Source of the DNA: a virus
Strand: one strand, 5' to 3'
Length of the DNA stretch: 29,628 nucleotides
Virus record (IMG/VR): IMGVR_UViG_3300010158_000243
Span: 1 to 29,628 of that record
Position 1 is the stretch's first letter; each line of letters begins with the position of its first letter. This document shows, one piece after another, positions 3,594 to 29,628 of the stretch. Below the pieces are notes generated by a model. That model was not told the origin of the DNA, ran no database searches, and saw only the letters and a list, made by a program, of their open reading frames with translations. A program made the translations under genes and the position numbers.

Positions 3594-4721
3594 ATGCAAA
3601 TCCTCAATATTGATTGGTTAAAGAGTGAGGGATTCATCGTTAGAGAAAGAATCATAGCTGATGAAAGGTGCTACCTTGTATACCCATCCCATATGGGAAT
3701 TAAATGGACCAAAGATAATCTAGAGTACAGAAGCAGCATATGGACCTGGGATGGGCGTCCAGTTTCTCTAGGATTTAAGAAATTCTTCAATTACGGAGAA
3801 GCCAATCACATTGTTCCTGACTTCACTGATCAGCAAATCAAAGATCATACAGCAATACCTATTGAGAAGATTGATGGGTCTTGTCTAATTGTCTCTAAAT
3901 TTGGAGGTATCGCTAACGGTGAATTGATCGTGCGCACCAGAGGTACATTTGATGCAGGTGAACATGATGCTACAGCTCATGAAATAGCTTATCTAAAGAA
4001 TAAGTATCCGAAGGTATTTGATAATCCCTATCTATCAAACGGCAGCCATTCATACATATACGAGTGGACTACCCGTAATAATCCTATTGTTGTAGACTAT
4101 GGTGCTGAACCTGACATCAGATTGATTGGTGTCATAGAACATGAGGCATACTCTTATACTCCACAGGTGTATCTCCCTGAGATAGCCATGGATCTTGGTG
4201 TGTGCGTAGCTGAGCATCACAAGTTCGCTTCTCAGGGTGCCCTGGAAGTGTCGCTGGTAGATATGCGAAATGCTGAAGGTTATTGCGTATACTATAACAA
4301 CGATCAGGATATCAAGAAGATCAAGTGCAGCTGGTATCGGGCAGCCCACAGGTTCATAAGCAACTGTACTCTTGATAATGTGTTGGACTTGTATCTGTCT
4401 TGGCTAAATCAAGACTATCCGTCTGCTGAAAGGTTTATCCAGTCACTGGAAACTGCCTTTGACTTTGAGTGTACAGACAAGGCAAAACTATATGCGTATC
4501 AGGCTCATGATGCTTATATGCAAAGCTTGAAAACGCTACGGCATATAGCTCTGTTCGTAGCTCAATTGGATGGCGACTCTAGGGATGGTCGAAAGCATGC
4601 AGCTGAGGTTATTCAAGAAGCTTATGGTTCTTCCGGGATGGTTCAGTTTGCATTCACAATGTTAAATAATCAACCATTGCAAGATAAACAACTTAAAAAG
4701 TTAGTAGAGTTACACCTATGA
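3594..4721 (+). CDS. RNA ligase, T4 Rnl1-like (RnlA family)
   Basis: An ATP-dependent RNA ligase that seals 5'-phosphate and 3'-OH RNA ends through an enzyme-lysyl-AMP intermediate. The nucleotidyltransferase motifs appear in order: motif I KIDGS with the likely adenylated Lys92, then LIVRTRGTFD, a motif III-like YIYEWTTRNNPIVVDY, motif IV EGYCVYY and motif V KIKCSWYRAAH. At 375 residues it is close to T4 RnlA in length, with a helical C-terminal domain. In T4 the enzyme repairs tRNA cut by host anticodon nucleases; the two tRNA genes in this window and a phosphoesterase at 13839 make an RNA-repair role plausible here. ATG 3594 follows the previous stop by five bases. The stop overlaps the next start (ATGA). 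Confidence 0.93.
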   Translation: MQILNIDWLKSEGFIVRERIIADERCYLVYPSHMGIKWTKDNLEYRSSIWTWDGRPVSLGFKKFFNYGEANHIVPDFTDQQIKDHTAIPIEKIDGSCLIVSKFGGIANGELIVRTRGTFDAGEHDATAHEIAYLKNKYPKVFDNPYLSNGSHSYIYEWTTRNNPIVVDYGAEPDIRLIGVIEHEAYSYTPQVYLPEIAMDLGVCVAEHHKFASQGALEVSLVDMRNAEGYCVYYNNDQDIKKIKCSWYRAAHRFISNCTLDNVLDLYLSWLNQDYPSAERFIQSLETAFDFECTDKAKLYAYQAHDAYMQSLKTLRHIALFVAQLDGDSRDGRKHAAEVIQEAYGSSGMVQFAFTMLNNQPLQDKQLKKLVELHL

Positions 4722-16149: not shown

Positions 16150-16222
16150 GGGCCTGTAGCTCAATGGTTAGAGCAGGCAACTCATAATTGCTTGGTTGGC
16201 GGTTCGAATCCGTCCAGGCCCA
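16150..16222 (+). tRNA. tRNA with anticodon CAU, probably tRNA-Ile2
   Basis: A complete 73-base cloverleaf: acceptor GGGCCTG/CAGGCCC perfect, D stem GCTC/GAGC, anticodon loop CTCATAA, T stem GGCGG/CCGTC with one G-U. The anticodon is CAU. The arm AGGC-ACTCATAA-GCTTGGT closely follows the bacterial tRNA-Ile2 type, in which TilS converts C34 to lysidine so that it reads AUA. Elongator tRNA-Met is the alternative. The initiator features (mismatched first pair, three G-C pairs in the anticodon stem) are absent. CCA is not encoded. The last three acceptor bases also belong to the next hairpin. Confidence 0.92.
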
Positions 16223-16254
16223 CTTTCTTTTAAACAGCATTAAAAGAAAGTGGG
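16219..16254 (+). promoter_or_regulatory. Perfect 15-base-pair hairpin overlapping the tRNA 3' end
   Basis: CCCACTTTCTTTTAA (16219-16233) is the exact complement of TTAAAAGAAAGTGGG (16240-16254), with a six-base loop. The left arm starts in the tRNA acceptor strand, so the hairpin competes with the tRNA fold. It could steer 3' processing of the tRNA, act as a terminator without a strong T-run, or protect the cleaved end. Confidence 0.75.
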
Positions 16255-16972: not shown

Positions 16973-17049
16973 GCACCAGTAGCTCAGCTGGATAGAGCAA
17001 CGGATTTCTAATCCGTTGGTCGCAGGTTCGAATCCTGCCTGGTGCACCA
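16973..17049 (+). tRNA. tRNA-Arg (anticodon UCU)
   Basis: A complete cloverleaf of 77 bases including an encoded CCA end: acceptor GCACCAG/CTGGTGC, D stem GCTC/GAGC, anticodon stem ACGGA/TCCGT with loop TTTCTAA, T arm GCAGG-TTCGAAT-CCTGC. The anticodon UCU reads AGA and AGG, both common in this A/T-rich genome. It has the typical bacterial tRNA-Arg(UCU) look. The gene is flanked on both sides, with no spacing, by the direct repeat CTTTCAAC. Confidence 0.95.
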
Positions 17050-20566: not shown

Positions 20567-21763
20567 ATGAACAGCAAACAGGCAAACATATCAGCTAACT
20601 TTGAGAAACAGATCATGAATCTTCTCAAAAAGAACAAACTCACTGGATTCAGATCAGGAGCAGCAGCAAGAGAAGCAATGATGGGTGGAGGAGTAGGAGG
20701 AGCGGTAGGACTGGCTGATGCGATGAAAGACGACAGCTCAGGCAATGTACCTGATGATGATAAAATGTCTCATTATCTGAAGTCTATCCTAGGATATGGA
20801 ACCGCTGGTGCAGGAATAGGTGCAGGCTTTGGATTAAAAAAAGGATTAAAGCTTAAAAACCAAGCAGCCAAGGCTCATCTTAAGGATCTCTTGCCTGGTA
20901 TAGAAAAAGAACTAGCCGTAGGGGTAGATCCCACATTGATGGGTGAAGCTAGAAAGAGAGTATTAAACCAGATTGAGCAGCATCACCCAGCAATGGACTA
21001 TGAAACATTCATGGAGAACCTGGCTAATGAAAAAGCACACGCTCCTATGGTTGACAAGAAACCAGGCTTCTTTGAACGTAGAGATATAAAGAGCGAATCA
21101 GGGAAAGCTAAAGAGAAGTTTGAAGCGGGTAGGGCAGAACAAGCGACAAATAGTGCAAATCAAGCCAAGGCTGATGAAGCTATGAGAAAGGTGGAATCTA
21201 ATCTAGAGCCTGCAAAAAGATCCGTAGAAGATATTATCAAAGAAAGGCAGATCGGTGAACCAGGACCAAAGAGCAGGCCTTCTGGTACTACACCATTAGC
21301 TCCAGGCAAAGCAGGAGCAGGATTCAAACCATTATCTAAAGACACAATACCAGGAAATGCTCCAGCAGCTCCTCCAGTACCTGCCCCAGCCCCTGAAAAC
21401 ATATTTCAGAAGATGCACAAAGAAACCACTGAAGAAATAAATAGATACCTGAATCATCTAAGTGGCGGCGGAGCATCTATACTTGGACATGCCGAGAATC
21501 TACAGGCACATAAAGAGGATATAGCTAATTTCGCTAGAAAAGCTCATGGTAGACAAACAAGATCAAGAGAATCACTAGAGGAGTTGAATGATAGAATAAA
21601 CGCTAATCATTCAAAACTGTTCGGTAGGCAAAATACACCATCACCGGCAAATTCTGCCGCTGCCCCTGCAGTTACTGCCGCAACCACACCTACAACAGCA
21701 AACTCTAGTCAAGGATTTCAGAGCTTCGGTAGTATGCTAGGCCAGCTCACTGGTAAACCCTAG
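20567..21763 (+). CDS. Unknown Gly/Ala/Pro-rich protein, possible virion protein
   Basis: A 398-residue protein. The N-terminal 30 residues are charged and helical (SANFEKQIMNLLKKNKLTGF). Two glycine-rich hydrophobic segments follow (AMMGGGVGGAVGLADAM and GYGTAGAGIGAGFGLKKGLK), like those of membrane-inserting or ejected virion proteins. A charged helical centre and a Pro/Ala-rich linker (PGNAPAAPPVPAPAPENIFQ) lead to a second helical part and a low-complexity end. No family recognised. It lies just upstream of the giant multidomain gene and is probably expressed with it, so packaging in the virion is a reasonable guess. Confidence 0.75.
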   Translation: MNSKQANISANFEKQIMNLLKKNKLTGFRSGAAAREAMMGGGVGGAVGLADAMKDDSSGNVPDDDKMSHYLKSILGYGTAGAGIGAGFGLKKGLKLKNQAAKAHLKDLLPGIEKELAVGVDPTLMGEARKRVLNQIEQHHPAMDYETFMENLANEKAHAPMVDKKPGFFERRDIKSESGKAKEKFEAGRAEQATNSANQAKADEAMRKVESNLEPAKRSVEDIIKERQIGEPGPKSRPSGTTPLAPGKAGAGFKPLSKDTIPGNAPAAPPVPAPAPENIFQKMHKETTEEINRYLNHLSGGGASILGHAENLQAHKEDIANFARKAHGRQTRSRESLEELNDRINANHSKLFGRQNTPSPANSAAAPAVTAATTPTTANSSQGFQSFGSMLGQLTGKP

Positions 21764-21801: not shown

Positions 21802-24800
21802 ATGTTTAATCTCGTACAATTGTTAGCGAATAGGTCAAAAGTTGCAGGAGAAAACGGCAAAATGGAAAAATCTGCCGTTGTACTAGGCAATAGTTTACCT
21901 AATCCAGGTCCAACAAGACTAGGTCAGCTGGCAGGTGTTAACGAAACCAAATCTAGTCATCAGACTGGGCTAACTAAAGAATTAACGAATCCATATCAAC
22001 CTAGCGTTGCTCCCAAACCAGCTGAGGGTCTATCAGCATTCACAGGTAATGATGCAGTTAAAGATGTTTCTCATAGTCCCATACGTTCAAATGTTGCTCC
22101 CGTCGCTCCGAAGCCAGCTCAGTTTACCAGGATACCACGAACCACTGAACCTAGAGGAGTGGGTATTGGTAAGGTAGCAAGGAATACAGGAATAGTGGAC
22201 GTTGATGGTAACGCTTATGTGAACACTGAGGATGTGGAGCTACTGGGTAAACTAGGGTTTAGCATAGATATTAATGAGTATATTGGGCTAGAGAAGACAA
22301 GTGAGGCTTTGGATCTATACTCGTACATAGAGAAAGAGGCTGGAGTTCCTAAAGCTGTAAGTAAAGCTGTAGACAAGGGTGAAGCTTTCAGTGGGTCGTT
22401 TCTAGAAGATATGGAATATAGGGTTCCAAAGGGATATGAGATAAAAGGTGATCTTTGTTGTCCTGTTGAGAAGAAGGCTTCCAGATTAAGAGACAGTGTA
22501 GATATAACCTCACATAGTGATCCTAGCGGCTTGCAGGAATACAAGGCAGCTATCGGTGACAAGCAGATAGGTAATATGCTAGTAGCTGACGTCGAAGGTA
22601 AAGGCAAAGTAGTTGCTCACAGCATACTAGAGCCAGAGTTCCGTGGAATGGGTTTGGGTAAGAAACTATATGGCGAGGTTATGCGTCGACAGCCTGAGGG
22701 TGTGTTACATAGTGGTCCTGTAGTGAGTGATGATGCTAAACGTGTGTGGGATAGTCTAAAACATAATAAGGGATATAACGTAGTTGGTGAAGCTCCTGAA
22801 TTAGTGGGGCAAATAAATAGTAAGGCTTTAAATATTCCAAATAAAATTAAAAAAGTGTTGGCTGCTCCTGCTGCAGCTGAAGTTAAGGGATCTCTATTAG
22901 GTAAAATAAAGAGTCTATTGGGTGCTGTTAAAAAAGCTGAAGCCACTCACAAGTTAGATAAGGAGGCTAGTGAGAAGACTGGTTCAGTTGAAAAAGAGTC
23001 TTTTGAAAAGACTGCTATAGGTAATAAAAGTGTTAATAGGCTGTTTGAGTCGCTAGAAAAAACCGCAGCAGCTGATCCAAGTCAGTCTATTCTAGTAACA
23101 GGTCATAGTGGCGCAGGAAAAAGTACACTAGCCAAAGCTCTGGCTGAAAGATTAAAGCTTCCACTAGAACGTGTGGATGCTCATCCGGAGTTTAAAGAAT
23201 ATGTAACCAAAGACGATCATGGTCGCTGGCAAAAGTCTCTTACTCCAGGCACAGAAGAGCATACTTTCTATACTGATCTAGTACACCGAGCTAATCAGCA
23301 TACACTAGAGAATAGTCCAGCAGCAGCAATCATAGAAGGAGCTCAATTAGGTCATATGACTCCTGAAGAGCTAGCTAAATACAAAGCACATATTGTAGTT
23401 GGTGGTGATCCTGAGCAGAGTATAGCGCAGAGAATAGCTCGATCAGCTAAAAAGAAAGGTATTACATTCACACCTGCTGAGATACTCGAGAAGCAACAAA
23501 AGGCTAGGGCGGTTGTGGATTTTTGGGCTCCTGGCATAGAGAAGTTTAAAAAGCTTCCAGGTATGCTTCACTATAATCATACAGAACACGAGCTGGAACC
23601 ACTGCTCAAGAAACTGCAGGGTATATTACATAAAAAAGCTGAAGAGACTCACGAACTAGAAAAAACTGCGTCGTCTGCAAGCAGACGTATCATGGATATG
23701 TTAGGAACAGCAGATCAGGGTAAAATAAATGAAACACTAGACAGAGTAACAAATTTAGGGAAAAACAATGAGCAACCTAGGGCGGTACAGGTGCCCTCTA
23801 ATGATGGTGCCCAATACACTTCTTACACCCCCGCACCGATACAACAAAACTCTAGCTTTTCTGATCTGCTGGGAAGCAAGCAAAGAGAACTAGCCAATAG
23901 ATATGGAGGATATAATACTGATAATAATAGCAGTGTAAACTCGAGATTAGCCAATAGATATCGCGAGATGCACCAGACGAGTAATCGGTCTCCTGAAGAA
24001 GGGCCTCGTTCGACCAAAGTAGAAGATCTTAGAGATGGTGATAGTTTTAGTCGGCAGAAAATAGATGCCAGTCTAAAAGGAAAAAACGTGAGCGGTGTCT
24101 TAGATCCTCGAGGGCATTCTCAAGGTGTATTAGCTCAATTTAAAATAGATAACCCTAATTTTACAGAGGAACCTTATTTCACACCACATGGAACAGATAC
24201 AAACCTTGATGTGAGAAAAGATAAAAATGCACTACCTCCACTAAAAGATCGTGTTGGTCAAGAGCATTTAGATCCAACTAAAAGAAACACTTTCGAAACT
24301 GTATTAAACTCACAAAACGTACGCTCAGACGCAAAGAGATTAAATGCAACACAGTATTTTTTACCTTCCACTGAAAATAAACCTGGTAGCATACACACAT
24401 CACAACTACCTAACGCGCTACAAGGATATATGTATAAGGGAAATCCTATAGATACCATACAGGCGGCTAAAAATTTAGGAGAAGTGTCAAAAATGCCTGT
24501 AGAAAGAGGATTTTTCTTTAGTGGTGAACCTGCAGTATCTGCAAGATATTTAGATTCGACGGCGTTGACAACAGGTAAAGTTGGAACTCCCATGAACCAA
24601 CAGCAACCTGATTATGTTGCTCCTGCAGGATTTCGCGAATTGAGAAGATATGCGAACAATGCGCGAACTTCAAAAAACAGCATAGCTGATTACATGCAAG
24701 ACAAATTAAAATATTCTCCTGCAGCACAACCGCAACCTCAGGCACCGCAACCTCAGGCACCGCAACCTCAGTCACCGACACCTCAGGCACCGCAACCTCA

Positions 24801-26850
24801 GGCACCGACACCTGATCAAGGTATGCCGGCTAACTATATGCGTACATCAAGAAGCCGCGCGATTCCTCCACCGGGAGCACCAGTACAAAGCCTAGCAGGT
24901 AATCTTTCAAAGGGGTTAGGTGCAGCTCAAACCGTTGCAGCCGGTGTTGGAGTAGCTAAAAACATATACGATGGTAATTATGGGCAAGCTGCAGCAGGAA
25001 CTGGTATGATGGCTGGCGGTAAGCTATTAGCTAAAAACCCAGTAACCGCAAAGGCTCTTCCCGCTTTAGGAGCATATACTAGCGGGGTAGACACCGTGAA
25101 TAAAGTGAAAGATAATGACTTAACAGGTGCAGCCATATCTGGAGCAAATACGGTAGCTAACGGAATGATGATGTATCCTCCAACAGCCCCCTTGGGTGCG
25201 GTAGCTAGTGCTGGATTAACTGGTATTGGTATGGCAAGAGACGCATATAGAAACCAGATGGTTCCAAATCCAAACTACGCCAAACAAAGTAATGGTGCAA
25301 TGAGTGACAGTCAAAAGCTTTATGCTCCAGGTACACCTGCAGCAGTGCCTAGAAAGGATGTCGGCAGTAAACCGCAAACTGCTGCACCACTAGCTAAACA
25401 GGGAGAAGCCACTCACGAACTAGAGAAAGAGGCTAGTAAGGCGTCTAGGCGGGTAATGGAGATATTGCGTAAAGCTAGTCCTACTAAAAAACAAGAGCTT
25501 ATAAAAAGGCTGCATAAAAATAACATAACTCAAAGTAGCGATCTAGATAAAATGATTTTAGCTAAGCCGATGGCTAAATTTAAAGACTTCACTCTAAGTG
25601 AGAGCATTGTGGATAAAATGTTACGTGGAACTGGTCACGAGAGAGACAGTGTAGCTGATAAATTTAATCTAGGAACCACAAGAAAGGACATCACATCAAT
25701 TTTAAACGCAGACTCCACCGGGAAAACGTATTTATTTGGGCAGTATCCTATCAAACAGGAAGGCCTGGGAGAATTGTTATTTACTCCACATCTAGCAGAA
25801 GGAGATGAGTTAAAAAGAAAAGAAAAGTTAATTAAATATTTGGCAGACCCTAAAAGTGTTAGATTGCACGGAAGAAATCAAGGCTGGCAAAAACAGTTAA
25901 ATTACGAAACGGTTATAGGTAAACATAATATTGTAGATCCTTCCAAAAAATTAAAGGCTAACTATTTCATCCCTGTAAAAAAGCCTTCACCTTCCACGGT
26001 GACTCCAAATCTTCTTCCCACTTCGGAGCACGGATATATGTATAAAGGAGGACCTTCTGACAGCTTGCAAGATGCTCGCAACTTACGTAAAGCCGTAGAT
26101 ACCAGCGGATATTTCTTTAGTGGTAATCCTGAGATTTCTGCAGGTTACGCAGGTGAGGCGAAATTTTTACAGCCTGCAGGTTTTCGAGATTTGCGATCCC
26201 ATCTATCAGTTGCGCCAGAACTGCGTAAAAAACATAGACTGATGGCGAGTAACTTAGAAAATTACATCAAGCCTGACCCTGCAGTGATTTCTAATCCTAG
26301 CCTAAGCACTAAGCTAAAGATGTATGGAAAAAATCTATTAGACTCGTTTAAAAAAGCTGAAGCCACTCACGAGCTCAAGAGCAGTAATATCAAAGCTGTA
26401 GGATACGACAAAAAAGAAAAGGAACTAGAGGTACATTTCCACAGTGGTGGAGAATACAAGTATAGTGATGTCCCAGCGAGTCTCTTTCATCGTCTACTGA
26501 AGGTGAAGAGTCCTGGAGGGTTCTTCCACAAGCATATCAAGAAAGACAACCCTTTTGAATACGAACGCTTGAACAAGGCTGCAGGAATTCCTGAGCATGT
26601 AAGGAAAGCTATGATCAACGGCGAGCGTGAGGTTCTTCAGAGATCTCAGAAAGCTAGTGTGGCTAGCCGACTCAACAATATAGCTGCAAAGAAGCATAAG
26701 GATGAGTTGTCTCGTTTGATCAACATGGGTGAAGAAAAGGTTGTCTATCCACCCAGTGCGTACAATAATCAAACTAGTCTGAAGTTGAGCCTGCCAGAGA
26801 TAGACTACGAAAAGACTCAGAAATATATATTACCCCGTAAAACGTCATGA
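21802..26850 (+). CDS. Giant multidomain protein: GNAT, kinase, two ART-like domains, KTSC
   Basis: A 1682-residue protein built of modules. Residues about 235-325: GNAT-like acetyltransferase with the acetyl-CoA loop RGMGLGKKLYGEV at 281. Residues about 428-600: P-loop kinase of zeta-toxin type, Walker A GHSGAGKST at 434-442. Residues about 790-960 and 1290-1500: two paralogous domains, both with GYMYKGxP, G(F/Y)FFSGxPxxSAxY and PAGFR(E/D)LR, which look like ADP-ribosyltransferase folds. Residues about 970-1005: Pro/Gln repeat, then a Gly/Ala-rich hydrophobic region. Residues 1527-1593: KTSC domain (IKAVGYDKKEKELEVHFHSG). The linker AE(A/E)TH(E/K)L recurs at 379, 613, 1202 and 1519. Probably a virion-packaged set of host-modifying enzymes, by analogy with T4 Alt; this is inference. 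Confidence 0.85.
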   Translation: MFNLVQLLANRSKVAGENGKMEKSAVVLGNSLPNPGPTRLGQLAGVNETKSSHQTGLTKELTNPYQPSVAPKPAEGLSAFTGNDAVKDVSHSPIRSNVAPVAPKPAQFTRIPRTTEPRGVGIGKVARNTGIVDVDGNAYVNTEDVELLGKLGFSIDINEYIGLEKTSEALDLYSYIEKEAGVPKAVSKAVDKGEAFSGSFLEDMEYRVPKGYEIKGDLCCPVEKKASRLRDSVDITSHSDPSGLQEYKAAIGDKQIGNMLVADVEGKGKVVAHSILEPEFRGMGLGKKLYGEVMRRQPEGVLHSGPVVSDDAKRVWDSLKHNKGYNVVGEAPELVGQINSKALNIPNKIKKVLAAPAAAEVKGSLLGKIKSLLGAVKKAEATHKLDKEASEKTGSVEKESFEKTAIGNKSVNRLFESLEKTAAADPSQSILVTGHSGAGKSTLAKALAERLKLPLERVDAHPEFKEYVTKDDHGRWQKSLTPGTEEHTFYTDLVHRANQHTLENSPAAAIIEGAQLGHMTPEELAKYKAHIVVGGDPEQSIAQRIARSAKKKGITFTPAEILEKQQKARAVVDFWAPGIEKFKKLPGMLHYNHTEHELEPLLKKLQGILHKKAEETHELEKTASSASRRIMDMLGTADQGKINETLDRVTNLGKNNEQPRAVQVPSNDGAQYTSYTPAPIQQNSSFSDLLGSKQRELANRYGGYNTDNNSSVNSRLANRYREMHQTSNRSPEEGPRSTKVEDLRDGDSFSRQKIDASLKGKNVSGVLDPRGHSQGVLAQFKIDNPNFTEEPYFTPHGTDTNLDVRKDKNALPPLKDRVGQEHLDPTKRNTFETVLNSQNVRSDAKRLNATQYFLPSTENKPGSIHTSQLPNALQGYMYKGNPIDTIQAAKNLGEVSKMPVERGFFFSGEPAVSARYLDSTALTTGKVGTPMNQQQPDYVAPAGFRELRRYANNARTSKNSIADYMQDKLKYSPAAQPQPQAPQPQAPQPQSPTPQAPQPQAPTPDQGMPANYMRTSRSRAIPPPGAPVQSLAGNLSKGLGAAQTVAAGVGVAKNIYDGNYGQAAAGTGMMAGGKLLAKNPVTAKALPALGAYTSGVDTVNKVKDNDLTGAAISGANTVANGMMMYPPTAPLGAVASAGLTGIGMARDAYRNQMVPNPNYAKQSNGAMSDSQKLYAPGTPAAVPRKDVGSKPQTAAPLAKQGEATHELEKEASKASRRVMEILRKASPTKKQELIKRLHKNNITQSSDLDKMILAKPMAKFKDFTLSESIVDKMLRGTGHERDSVADKFNLGTTRKDITSILNADSTGKTYLFGQYPIKQEGLGELLFTPHLAEGDELKRKEKLIKYLADPKSVRLHGRNQGWQKQLNYETVIGKHNIVDPSKKLKANYFIPVKKPSPSTVTPNLLPTSEHGYMYKGGPSDSLQDARNLRKAVDTSGYFFSGNPEISAGYAGEAKFLQPAGFRDLRSHLSVAPELRKKHRLMASNLENYIKPDPAVISNPSLSTKLKMYGKNLLDSFKKAEATHELKSSNIKAVGYDKKEKELEVHFHSGGEYKYSDVPASLFHRLLKVKSPGGFFHKHIKKDNPFEYERLNKAAGIPEHVRKAMINGEREVLQRSQKASVASRLNNIAAKKHKDELSRLINMGEEKVVYPPSAYNNQTSLKLSLPEIDYEKTQKYILPRKTS
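24730..24815 (+). repeat. 15-base tandem repeat coding for Pro/Gln linker
   Basis: Units of CCGCAACCTCAGGCA and close variants (CCGACACCTCAGGCA) are repeated about six times in frame within the giant gene, coding for PQPQAPQPQAP. It forms a flexible spacer between the first ART-like domain and the hydrophobic region. Copy number could change by slippage without breaking the frame. Confidence 0.88.
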
Positions 26851-27365
26851 ATTTAAAAAAAGCATACATCACCGGATTCGTTAAGAGAGCGAATGACTAT
26901 GGACTCAGTGAACGAGAAGCTTTAAGCTTGTTCAAGCAAGCAGCTCCAGGATATAGAACTAACTCTCAGATCGGTTCTGAGATAAACAATATTAACGCTA
27001 ATCCAATCAAGACTACTGGTAGTGCTGCTGTTATGGACTTTCCTCAAAAGGGTGTTGTTCCTCCAAAGCTTCCAGCATATACACCAAACAACGAACAACC
27101 TCATCAGGGACCAGCTACATATCTAGAGAGTATTCCTGCGTTAGGGCATTTCATAGGGCCACCAGCACGAATGATGGAACATGACCCTGTAGGTGCAGGC
27201 CTAGGATTAGCCACAGATGCTCTCGCTTTTGGAGGACCCATCGGACTAGCTGCTGCTGGAGGAGTGTCGGTAGGTAGCAAGGTTAGAGACATGAGTAACT
27301 ATCTCGACAGAAAAGCGGATATTGCCAAGAAGATAGAAAACACGAATAGCCCGGTACAAGGATAA
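26847..27365 (+). CDS. Unknown 172-residue protein, putative virion component
   Basis: Starts four bases inside the giant gene's stop (ATGA). The N-terminus is a basic amphipathic pair of helices (AYITGFVKRANDYGLSEREA, then SLFKQAAP), a pattern I associate with virion proteins of large phages. A Pro/Asn-rich linker follows, then a hydrophobic Gly/Ala-rich segment (GAGLGLATDALAFGGPIGLA) and a charged end. The design of a short basic helix, linker and membrane-active segment matches the neighbouring genes, so it may be packaged or ejected with them. Confidence 0.72.
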   Translation: MNLKKAYITGFVKRANDYGLSEREALSLFKQAAPGYRTNSQIGSEINNINANPIKTTGSAAVMDFPQKGVVPPKLPAYTPNNEQPHQGPATYLESIPALGHFIGPPARMMEHDPVGAGLGLATDALAFGGPIGLAAAGGVSVGSKVRDMSNYLDRKADIAKKIENTNSPVQG

Positions 27366-27367
27366 AT

Positions 27368-28381
27368 ATGAACACAGATAAAATCAAATTCGGTTGCCCA
27401 GTAGCCCCAGCTGACTCAAGAGACAGAGCCTACAAACCTCGACTAGACCAAACAATATTCCTTGATGTGGATCTTAGACCTCAGTGTCCAGCTATCAGGA
27501 ATCAAAAAAATCTTGGAGCATGTACAGCTTTCGGTACAACAAGCTTGTTCAACTTTGTCAGGATGAAGCACGGACTAGCGTCATGGCTTCCATCTCCACT
27601 ATTCACATACTATGCTACACGGGAAAAGTATGGTGAGCAGAACATGGACAATGGCGCTTATGTTCGTGATGCGCTAAAGAGCACTGTGAATGATGGTGTA
27701 GCTATGGAGCGTGTGTGGCCTTATGTTGTATCCAGGTTCACTGAAAAGCCTTCTCCTCAAGTATACGCTGACGCAGAAAAACATCAGACTCTAGAGTATC
27801 TGAGCTTATCCCGTACAGATAAAGCGGCATTGCTAGCTTGCCTCAGTGAGGGTTACCCGTTCGTGTTTGGTATACCTGTGTATCCTAGCTTCATGAACCC
27901 AACTGGTGGCTTCGTTCCTCTACCTGATAAAGTTACAGAAGCAAGTATAGGCGGTCACTGCATGCTCTGTGTAGGCTACAAGAAAAACTCGGATGGAGTT
28001 GAGGTGCTTATTGTACAGAACAGCTGGAGTATTTATTGGGGTGACAATGGATATTGCTATATACCACTGAGCTATTTTATGGATTCAGCTTACGACGTGT
28101 GGACAATCAGAACTACTGAAGCTCCTGTTGACGATGTGGCTGATGAACCCCCAGCTCCTGAGCCTGAGCCTGAGCCAGCTCCTGAACCCCCAGCTCCTGA
28201 GCCTGAGCCTGAGCCAGCTCCTGAACCCCCAGCTCCTGAGCCTGAGCCAGCTCCTGAACCCCCAACGCCAATTCCAATTCCAGTTCCTGAGCCTGTAGTA
28301 AACGATAGTAAGACCAGTAAGATGGGTATTGTGGTGATATTAATATTTATTTTATTACTATTACTGTTTACAATACTCTAG
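27368..28381 (+). CDS. Papain-family (C1) cysteine peptidase with C-terminal membrane anchor
   Basis: A 337-residue protein. The catalytic residues of the C1 family are present: Gln46 (oxyanion hole) and Cys52 in RNQKNLGACTAF, His197 in IGGHCMLCVGY, and Asn218 in VQNSWSIYWGDNGY. There is no signal peptide and no long inhibitory prodomain, only about 40 residues ahead of the active site. A Pro/Glu repeat (PPAPEPEPEPAPE units) at residues about 261-308 is followed by a C-terminal membrane helix (GIVVILIFILLLLLFTIL), so it is tail-anchored. It lies two bases after the previous stop. Possible roles are processing of the polyprotein encoded upstream, attack on host proteins at the membrane, or a structural role on the virion. 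Confidence 0.9.
   Translation: MNTDKIKFGCPVAPADSRDRAYKPRLDQTIFLDVDLRPQCPAIRNQKNLGACTAFGTTSLFNFVRMKHGLASWLPSPLFTYYATREKYGEQNMDNGAYVRDALKSTVNDGVAMERVWPYVVSRFTEKPSPQVYADAEKHQTLEYLSLSRTDKAALLACLSEGYPFVFGIPVYPSFMNPTGGFVPLPDKVTEASIGGHCMLCVGYKKNSDGVEVLIVQNSWSIYWGDNGYCYIPLSYFMDSAYDVWTIRTTEAPVDDVADEPPAPEPEPEPAPEPPAPEPEPEPAPEPPAPEPEPAPEPPTPIPIPVPEPVVNDSKTSKMGIVVILIFILLLLLFTIL
28150..28265 (+). repeat. Tandem Pro/Glu-coding repeat
   Basis: Two 39-base units and one shorter 33-base unit, in frame, coding for PPAPEPEPEPAPE-type repeats between the peptidase domain and its membrane anchor. It gives a stiff, acidic stalk. Copy number changes in steps of six bases (one PE pair) keep the frame. Confidence 0.85.
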
Positions 28382-28462: not shown

Positions 28463-29628
28463 ATGCCTCTAAAGCCTAAAAAAATAACTGAATTACCACC
28501 CGCAGAGGCTTTAGGTGAGGGAGATCTTTTCGTTGTCGAGAATAACGATATAACGAAAAGGATTACTCTTGAAAACCTAAGCCATGCTGTAGCTGGACGT
28601 ATTCAGGAAGCAATTGCTGGGGCACCTGGTAATGCTGGCCCTGTTGGAGCTACTGGAGCAACAGGTTATTTTGGACCTACAGGCTTAAGAGGGGCTACTG
28701 GCGTTGCTGGTTCTACGGGAGTTCAAGGACATCCTGGTTCTACTGGCGCTACAGGATCTGATGGGGCTACTGGAGTTCTTGGCCCTAAGGGCAGCACTGG
28801 AGCCGTTGGCGCTACAGGAGCCTCAGGTATTGGAGATACTGGAAGCACAGGAAGCACAGGAAGTAGAGGAGAAATAGGTGCAACAGGAAGTACAGGGGCT
28901 ACAGGAAGTACAGGATACGACGGCGCTACAGGAAGTAGAGGATCGACAGGCCCTTCAGGTGATAGAGGTAATGCTGGTGGAGTTGGCGCCTCAGGAGCCA
29001 CAGGATATCAAGGAGCCACAGGATACGCTGGTGACACTGGACCTACAGGACAGGGAGCTACAGGAGCCACAGGATCTACAGGGGCCACAGGAGCGAGAGG
29101 ATCAACAGGGGCAGGAGCAACAGGATCTACAGGAGCAACCGGATATACTGGTTCTTCAGGGGTTAACGGAGCTACAGGACCTATAGGAGCTACAGGATAC
29201 GACGGCGCTACTGGTCCATCTGGTGGACCTACAGGAAGCACAGGAAGCACAGGTTTTGATGGAGCCACAGGGCCTTTTGGCGCTACAGGCGCAACGGGAG
29301 CTAGTGGATTAGGTGCCACAGGTGCCACAGGGGCTACAGGAGCCACAGGATACGCTGGAGCTACAGGATCAGGAGCAACAGGATCAACGGGAGTTAGAGG
29401 ATACCCTGGAAGTACAGGGGCAACTGGCTACACGGGTGCAACAGGCTCGACTGGGGCTACCGGATATCAAGGGTCTACGGGATCTACAGGAGCCACAGGA
29501 TACGCTGGTTCTACGGGATCTACGGGAGCAACAGGACCGAGAGGAGCAACAGGAAGTACAGGGGCTAGTGGATTAGGATCTACGGGAGCAACAGGAGCCT
29601 CTGGTAATACTGGGGCAACGGGAGCTAG
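28463..29628 (+). CDS. Collagen-like tail fibre protein, 3' end missing
   Basis: Open from ATG 28463 to the end of the window (388 codons) without a stop. The first 45 residues ([20 protein letters not shown] and [19 protein letters not shown]) resemble the N-terminal attachment segment of many phage tail fibres. From about residue 50 the chain is Gly-X-Y triplets, mainly GAT and GST with some GPT, GYxG and GSR, forming a collagen triple helix. Thr in the Y position rather than hydroxyproline is typical for bacterial and phage collagens. Several Gly-X-Gly interruptions break the triplet register. It would form a trimeric shaft; the receptor-binding tip lies beyond the window. Confidence 0.9.

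Follow-up and report, generated by a model that had tools for sequence, protein, structure and literature searches.

A candidate polyvalent effector precursor of a tailed phage with a head-gene motif at its module seams

The polyvalent gene and its surroundings

The stretch of DNA analyzed, referred to below as the window, is a complete IMG/VR record of 29,628 bases. An open reading frame check confirmed that the whole module array reported in a preliminary description is encoded by a single open frame at positions 21802–26850, corresponding to a protein of 1682 amino acids. The features of this gene and its neighbours are given below in window positions, with residue numbers in brackets.

20567–21763, + strand: Gly-zipper protein gene, 5′ of the polyvalent gene
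21802–26850, + strand: predicted polyvalent effector precursor, 1682 amino acids, based on the open reading frame and orthologues
21802–21876, + strand: leader-like N-terminal peptide ending MEKSA (1–25), with an early hydrophobic-x-K-x-A site in most orthologues
21877–22179, + strand: proline-rich spacer ending IGKVA (122–126), with K-x-A directly preceding RNTG in 10 of 13 orthologues
22180–22479, + strand: conserved family N-domain (127–226), present in all relatives, with internal sites LEKTS, IEKEA and VEKKA
22480–22851, + strand: GNAT-like module (227 to ~350), a weak assignment
22936–23067, + strand: linker 379 seam between GNAT-like module and kinase (379–422), with LDKEA, VEKES, FEKTA and LEKTA; pLDDT stays under 50 until the kinase begins
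23068–23640, + strand: P-loop kinase module (423–613), ending LHKKA
23638–23703, + strand: linker 613, LEKTA site and ASRR helix
24025–24741, + strand: putative ART-like repeat 1 (742–980)
24919–25296, + strand: Gly/Ala-rich region (~1040–1165), similar to relatives L007 and L012
25402–25470, + strand: linker 1201, LEKEA site and ASRR helix
25618–26301, + strand: putative ART-like repeat 2 (1273–1500)
26356–26376, + strand: linker 1519, the leading edge of KTSC (AEATHEL)
26377–26544, + strand: KTSC domain (1526–1581), Pfam E=9e-20, PDB 7x8c E=8e-12
26569–26583, + strand: LNKAA site (1590–1594) at the KTSC/tail junction
26584–26847, + strand: C-terminal tail module (1595–1682), common to L005, L007 and L011
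26847–27365, + strand: small leader-bearing gene, 3′ of the polyvalent gene, with leader GFVKRA..x12..LFKQA as in head and cargo proteins of relatives
27368–28381, + strand: papain-like C1 peptidase (Pfam E=3.5e-14) with an acidic proline-rich stalk and a hydrophobic C-terminus

The individual modules are assigned with differing certainty. The KTSC domain (PF13619) was recovered as previously described, at 70.6 bits against a cut-off of 25. The kinase, earlier called zeta-type, is firmly of P-loop kinase fold but the zeta assignment was not sustained, as P-loop Pfam matches fall below their cut-offs, including Zeta_toxin (PF06414; E=0.019, 14.8 bits against 22.3). A structural model of residues 422–617 was confident (pLDDT mostly 72–92), with the kinase folded exactly between two K-x-A sites, and a Foldseek search with this model retrieved NMP, shikimate and gluconate kinases at E ~1e-6, to which the modelled domain appears closest. 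The whole protein of a two-kinase relative (L002) scores above the Zeta_toxin cut-off, and no relatives of the window kinase were found among named phages at E 1e-3. A GNAT acetyltransferase could not be substantiated, residues ~245–345 giving only weak matches to Acetyltransf_7 (E=0.021, 15.6 bits, below the cut-off of 27) and to the acetyltransferase PA4534 (E=0.16). The two domains described as paralogous and ART-like are indeed paralogues (31–32% identical), but for the ART fold itself there was no Pfam match and the model had a pLDDT of 36. A profile built from both repeats matched residues 742–980 and 1273–1500 and no other segment among all fetched ORFs, and no relatives of the repeats were found in IMG/VR. 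The reported hydrophobic region is present at ~1040–1165 but is Gly/Ala-rich with a peak 19-residue hydropathy of 1.06, and is therefore not a plain transmembrane segment.

Elsewhere in the window there is a T4-type RNA ligase 1 gene at 3594–4721 (Pfam E=1.7e-11), genes for tRNA-Met(cat) and tRNA-Arg(tct) at 16150–16223 and 16973–17049, respectively, and a collagen-like tail fibre gene at 28463–29626 that is truncated by the end of the record. The window record contains no head cluster, a portal-like gene being its sole head-type gene. In one relative (L005:8663–11680) a Gly-zipper sequence similar to that of window gene 20567–21763 is an in-frame fusion partner of the polyvalent protein. DUF1501 genes lie close to the polyvalent gene in relatives (L002:13289–16103; L030:11587–15925, corresponding to G001 111587–115928), and G001 additionally has a PSCyt1/PSCyt2/PSD1 gene nearby. 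DUF1501 and the PSCyt1/PSCyt2/PSD1 families are typical of Planctomycetota, and these neighbours give a hint of a Planctomycetota host.

Module shuffling among relatives

Scans of IMG/VR, using as query the full-length protein or its conserved N-domain, gave a family of 14 contigs with lengths up to 204 kb. An identical match in L002, L003 and L004 was counted once, giving 13 distinct proteins, namely the window protein and 12 orthologues. The best reading of the phage carrying the polyvalent precursor is a tailed phage of roughly 190–200 kb. An N-domain of ~100 amino acids is common to all 13 proteins and nearly all sequence beyond it differs. The N-domain matched no Pfam or PHROGs family, and searches of bacterial genomes gave no match to it. 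The modules shuffled behind it include one or two kinases, KTSC, MazG-like, AstE/aspartoacylase-like (Pfam E=3e-4), HExxH peptidase-like, DUF6321, RCWEGY and others, the smallest relative (L016, 299 amino acids) consisting of the N-domain and KTSC only. Several distinct effector-like domains occur in one phage polypeptide, and the architecture varies strongly between relatives. The gene may be viewed as a cassette rack in which a constant N-domain is followed by exchangeable enzyme-like modules, usually including KTSC.

The RCWEGY and PGLWANI/DUF6321 modules are also found outside the array, in small genes (G004 60455 and G005 166260) where the lone module sits behind a short leader ending K-x-[AS]. 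By eye, an ART-like YRG..STS..EQE pattern was seen in L015 and a RelA/SpoT-like pattern in L012, neither of which was borne out by database searches: the only PDB match of the L015 module was a weak one to the ART toxin TreX (E=0.18), and PDB look-ups with the L012 module and with the AstE-like module gave no match. In L013 the first ~20 KTSC residues continue directly into sequence that looks like a kinase end (residues ~645–675), likely a deletion scar.

The motif at module seams and in head genes

A repeated linker, [AG]E[AE]TH[EK]L, had been proposed as the boundary mark at which a packaged precursor would be cut. The repeat is real, occurring at residues 379, 613, 1201 (previously given as 1202) and 1519 as against 0.0005 per protein in shuffled sequences, and the helix ASRR(I/V)M(D/E) follows the second and third linkers at residues 626 and 1214 as described, with essentially none in shuffles. 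However, the fourth linker is the KTSC start itself, which in relatives reads THELKSSNIKAVGY, and the DNA of linkers 379 and 1519 is identical over 23 nt, indicating that AEATHEL is for the most part the KTSC edge, duplicated at further seams with almost the same DNA. It is missing from most seams of the relatives and was rejected as a general cut mark.

The seam element common to the family is, from the sequences compared, hydrophobic-x-K-x-A rather than AEATHEL. This motif occurs 83 times in the 13 proteins against 29 expected, and the narrower form hydrophobic-E-K-x-[AS] 51 times against 3.5 expected. Its placement follows module edges, as 41 of the 83 motifs lie within 5 amino acids of the ends of homologous blocks (12.8 in simulations, with flat controls) and K-x-[AS] precedes 49 of 55 module starts against a background of 0.168 (~17%), although these boundary counts are not independent since the statistics use homologous proteins. 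Two of the six module starts without K-x-[AS] are pattern matches within the kinase, and the motif is missing from N-domain starts in 3 of the 13 proteins. The favoured context is F/L/M/I-x-K-[QTER]-A-[EAS]. Some IEK-x-A sites fall within the conserved N-domain, which would be split by cutting there, and no site lies between ART-like repeat 1 and the Gly/Ala-rich region; a one-site-per-seam rule, if strict, leaves both the internal N-domain sites and the missing site after repeat 1 unexplained.

These observations bear on whether the protein is an ordinary multidomain enzyme active uncut, its seams being recombination scars and K-x-A a habit of helical linkers. The 23 nt identity of linkers 379 and 1519 and the L013 fusion are in keeping with scars of this kind. 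Against it, the codons of the motif vary freely, matching background use, and 78 of the 83 sites are distinct in DNA, indicating selection at the protein level; a DNA-level repeat as the source of K-x-A was likewise rejected on these grounds. The lysine is also specific, replacement by R giving only 1.23-fold enrichment, with acidic residues near 1 and Q little or not enriched. Together with the absence of enrichment from early and tail genes (below), this makes an uncut enzyme a very improbable explanation.

Four relatives (G001, G003, G004 and G005) were read entirely or nearly so. Profile matches in G004 identified a head maturation protease (133187–134629) and a major head protein (138426), both distantly related to proteins of Salmonella phage Arash and Vibrio phage D69, and the T4-type MCP family PF07068 was not found in the relatives. 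In an unbiased scan ranking 400 hydrophobic-x-X-x-Y patterns, the K/A pattern came first in the head clusters of the four relatives, Arash and D69 (z 7–8), but not elsewhere in the relatives' genomes or in phage G, Myrna, Stormageddon or the K64-1/CBB stretches. In G004 the motif was observed 50 times in head genes (15.6 expected) and 23 times in the polyvalent/leader region (11.7 expected), while there was no excess in early (26 against 28.5) or tail (25 against 21.6) genes. The excess is therefore specific to head and cargo genes, and a genome-wide K-x-A habit was rejected. The polyvalent gene itself lies outside the head cluster, and in the relatives its product has this short motif in common with the head proteins of the same phage. 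A similar scan of T4 head proteins as a positive control ranked I.E first, matching the known specificity of gp21, which cleaves at L/I-x-E (PMC9026906). Within head proteins the motif lysine is more conserved than other lysines (77% against 47%), and the motif alanine than other alanines (74% against 38%), a contrast partly confounded because motif-rich proteins are more conserved overall.

By eye, two genes of the G004 head cluster (118825–121830 and 123382–125232; L040 and L041) resemble pieces of a multi-subunit RNA polymerase, and an RNA polymerase beta is annotated near the head genes of Arash. A leader, Y..GFVKRA..x12..LLKxA, opens many small proteins in G001, G003, G004 and G005 as well as the product of window gene 26847–27365, and to judge from its sequence may mark packaged cargo.

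Such a leader raises the alternative that hydrophobic-x-K-x-A is a docking or capsid-targeting motif for core or shell proteins, additional copies raising affinity, and that the polyvalent protein enters the head and is later ejected uncut. On many small proteins a pair of motifs makes up a conserved helical leader (GFVKRA..LLKQA), and such pairs are seen again in a scaffold-like protein. Capsid targeting and processing site share one short leader in T4 (PMC9026906), and a docking motif could yield much of the enrichment observed. However, the sites stand before each module and not at the N-terminus only, K-x-A lies directly before the conserved MCP N-arm in Arash, D69 and the relatives, and in the head maturation protease it is found around the catalytic region. 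Since these positions fit cutting better, docking of an uncut protein, the main rival, is considered rather unlikely.

Proposed processing and comparison with known systems

The presence of a head-protein signal at module seams suggests packaging and cutting within the particle. The idea of a packaged precursor cut at its linkers receives indirect, independent support from the head-gene motif at the seams, with AEATHEL replaced as the signal. We propose, as the probable reading of these sequences, that the gene encodes a polyvalent effector precursor that is taken into the prohead, where the head maturation protease cuts it. Nearly each module has the head-assembly motif in front of it; the protein would enter the prohead while the head assembles, the phage's own head maturation protease would cut after K-x-A, and the separate effectors so freed would be ejected together with the DNA, each presumably with its own role in the host. 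A fuller version is put at an even chance: a true effector polyprotein would be cut at K-x-A in the prohead, and these very sites would be the seams where cassettes are exchanged, both from one phage to another and from the array to leader-bearing stand-alone genes or back.

Another protease might process the protein instead, possibly after delivery. HExxH motifs are present in the polyvalent proteins of L002, L007, L013 and L014, and the adjacent papain-like C1 peptidase (27368–28381), with a similar neighbour in G001 and, by sequence, in G003, is a possible alternative processing enzyme. Processing of polyvalent proteins by zincin-like peptidases, with P1 DdrB as precedent, is proposed by Iyer et al. 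(PMC5512222). The window protein, however, has no HExxH module despite having the same seams, and the sharing of the motif with head proteins favours the head protease over others; processing by another enzyme is accordingly judged improbable.

Should the head maturation protease indeed process the protein, capsid maturation would double as effector release, one protease both maturing the head and freeing injected enzymes, and cassette exchange would explain the diversification of polyvalent proteins. Hydrophobic-x-K-x-A would then predict packaged proteins and their cut positions among the uncharacterized proteins of this lineage, offering a route to effectors in phages of uncultured hosts. 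Arash and Vibrio phage D69 are examples of cultured cousins in which the rule can be tested.

Polyvalent proteins, as presented by Iyer et al. (2017; PMC5512222), are single phage polypeptides with many effector-like domains, among which ART, GNAT and peptidase themes recur, and are predicted to be delivered with DNA. The family described here resembles them in its many effector-like domains per polypeptide and rampant domain shuffling, but its seams carry a head-cluster motif, whereas in the excerpts consulted processing is attributed to fused zincin-like peptidases and head maturation proteases are not proposed for it. In T4, Alt and the internal proteins IPI-III have capsid targeting sequences and are cut by gp21 (PMC9026906). 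A short leader and a very short (here candidate) protease motif are common to both systems, and the T4 cargo is packaged in the prohead core and includes an ART, as the proposed cargo here may; in T4, however, the cargo is one protein per gene, as opposed to serial modules with a site before nearly each, and the motif is L/I-x-E rather than K-x-A. The large heads of SPN3US and phiKZ likewise employ a short cleavage motif, A-x-E, at which head proteins are cut by gp245 and gp175, respectively, and many proteins are ejected (PMC10052503), but the motif is different and the sites mostly release N-terminal propeptides rather than separating modules. A KTSC protein, CBB_320, was detected by mass spectrometry in virions of Pectobacterium phage CBB (4 peptides, 37.2% coverage; PMC5259590), placing KTSC in a phage virion, yet as a single small protein and not a polyprotein. 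Beside the processing by fused metallopeptidases put forward in PMC5512222, an array of cassettes joined at seams that a head protease cuts would, as far as the excerpts show, be a new form of polyvalent protein.
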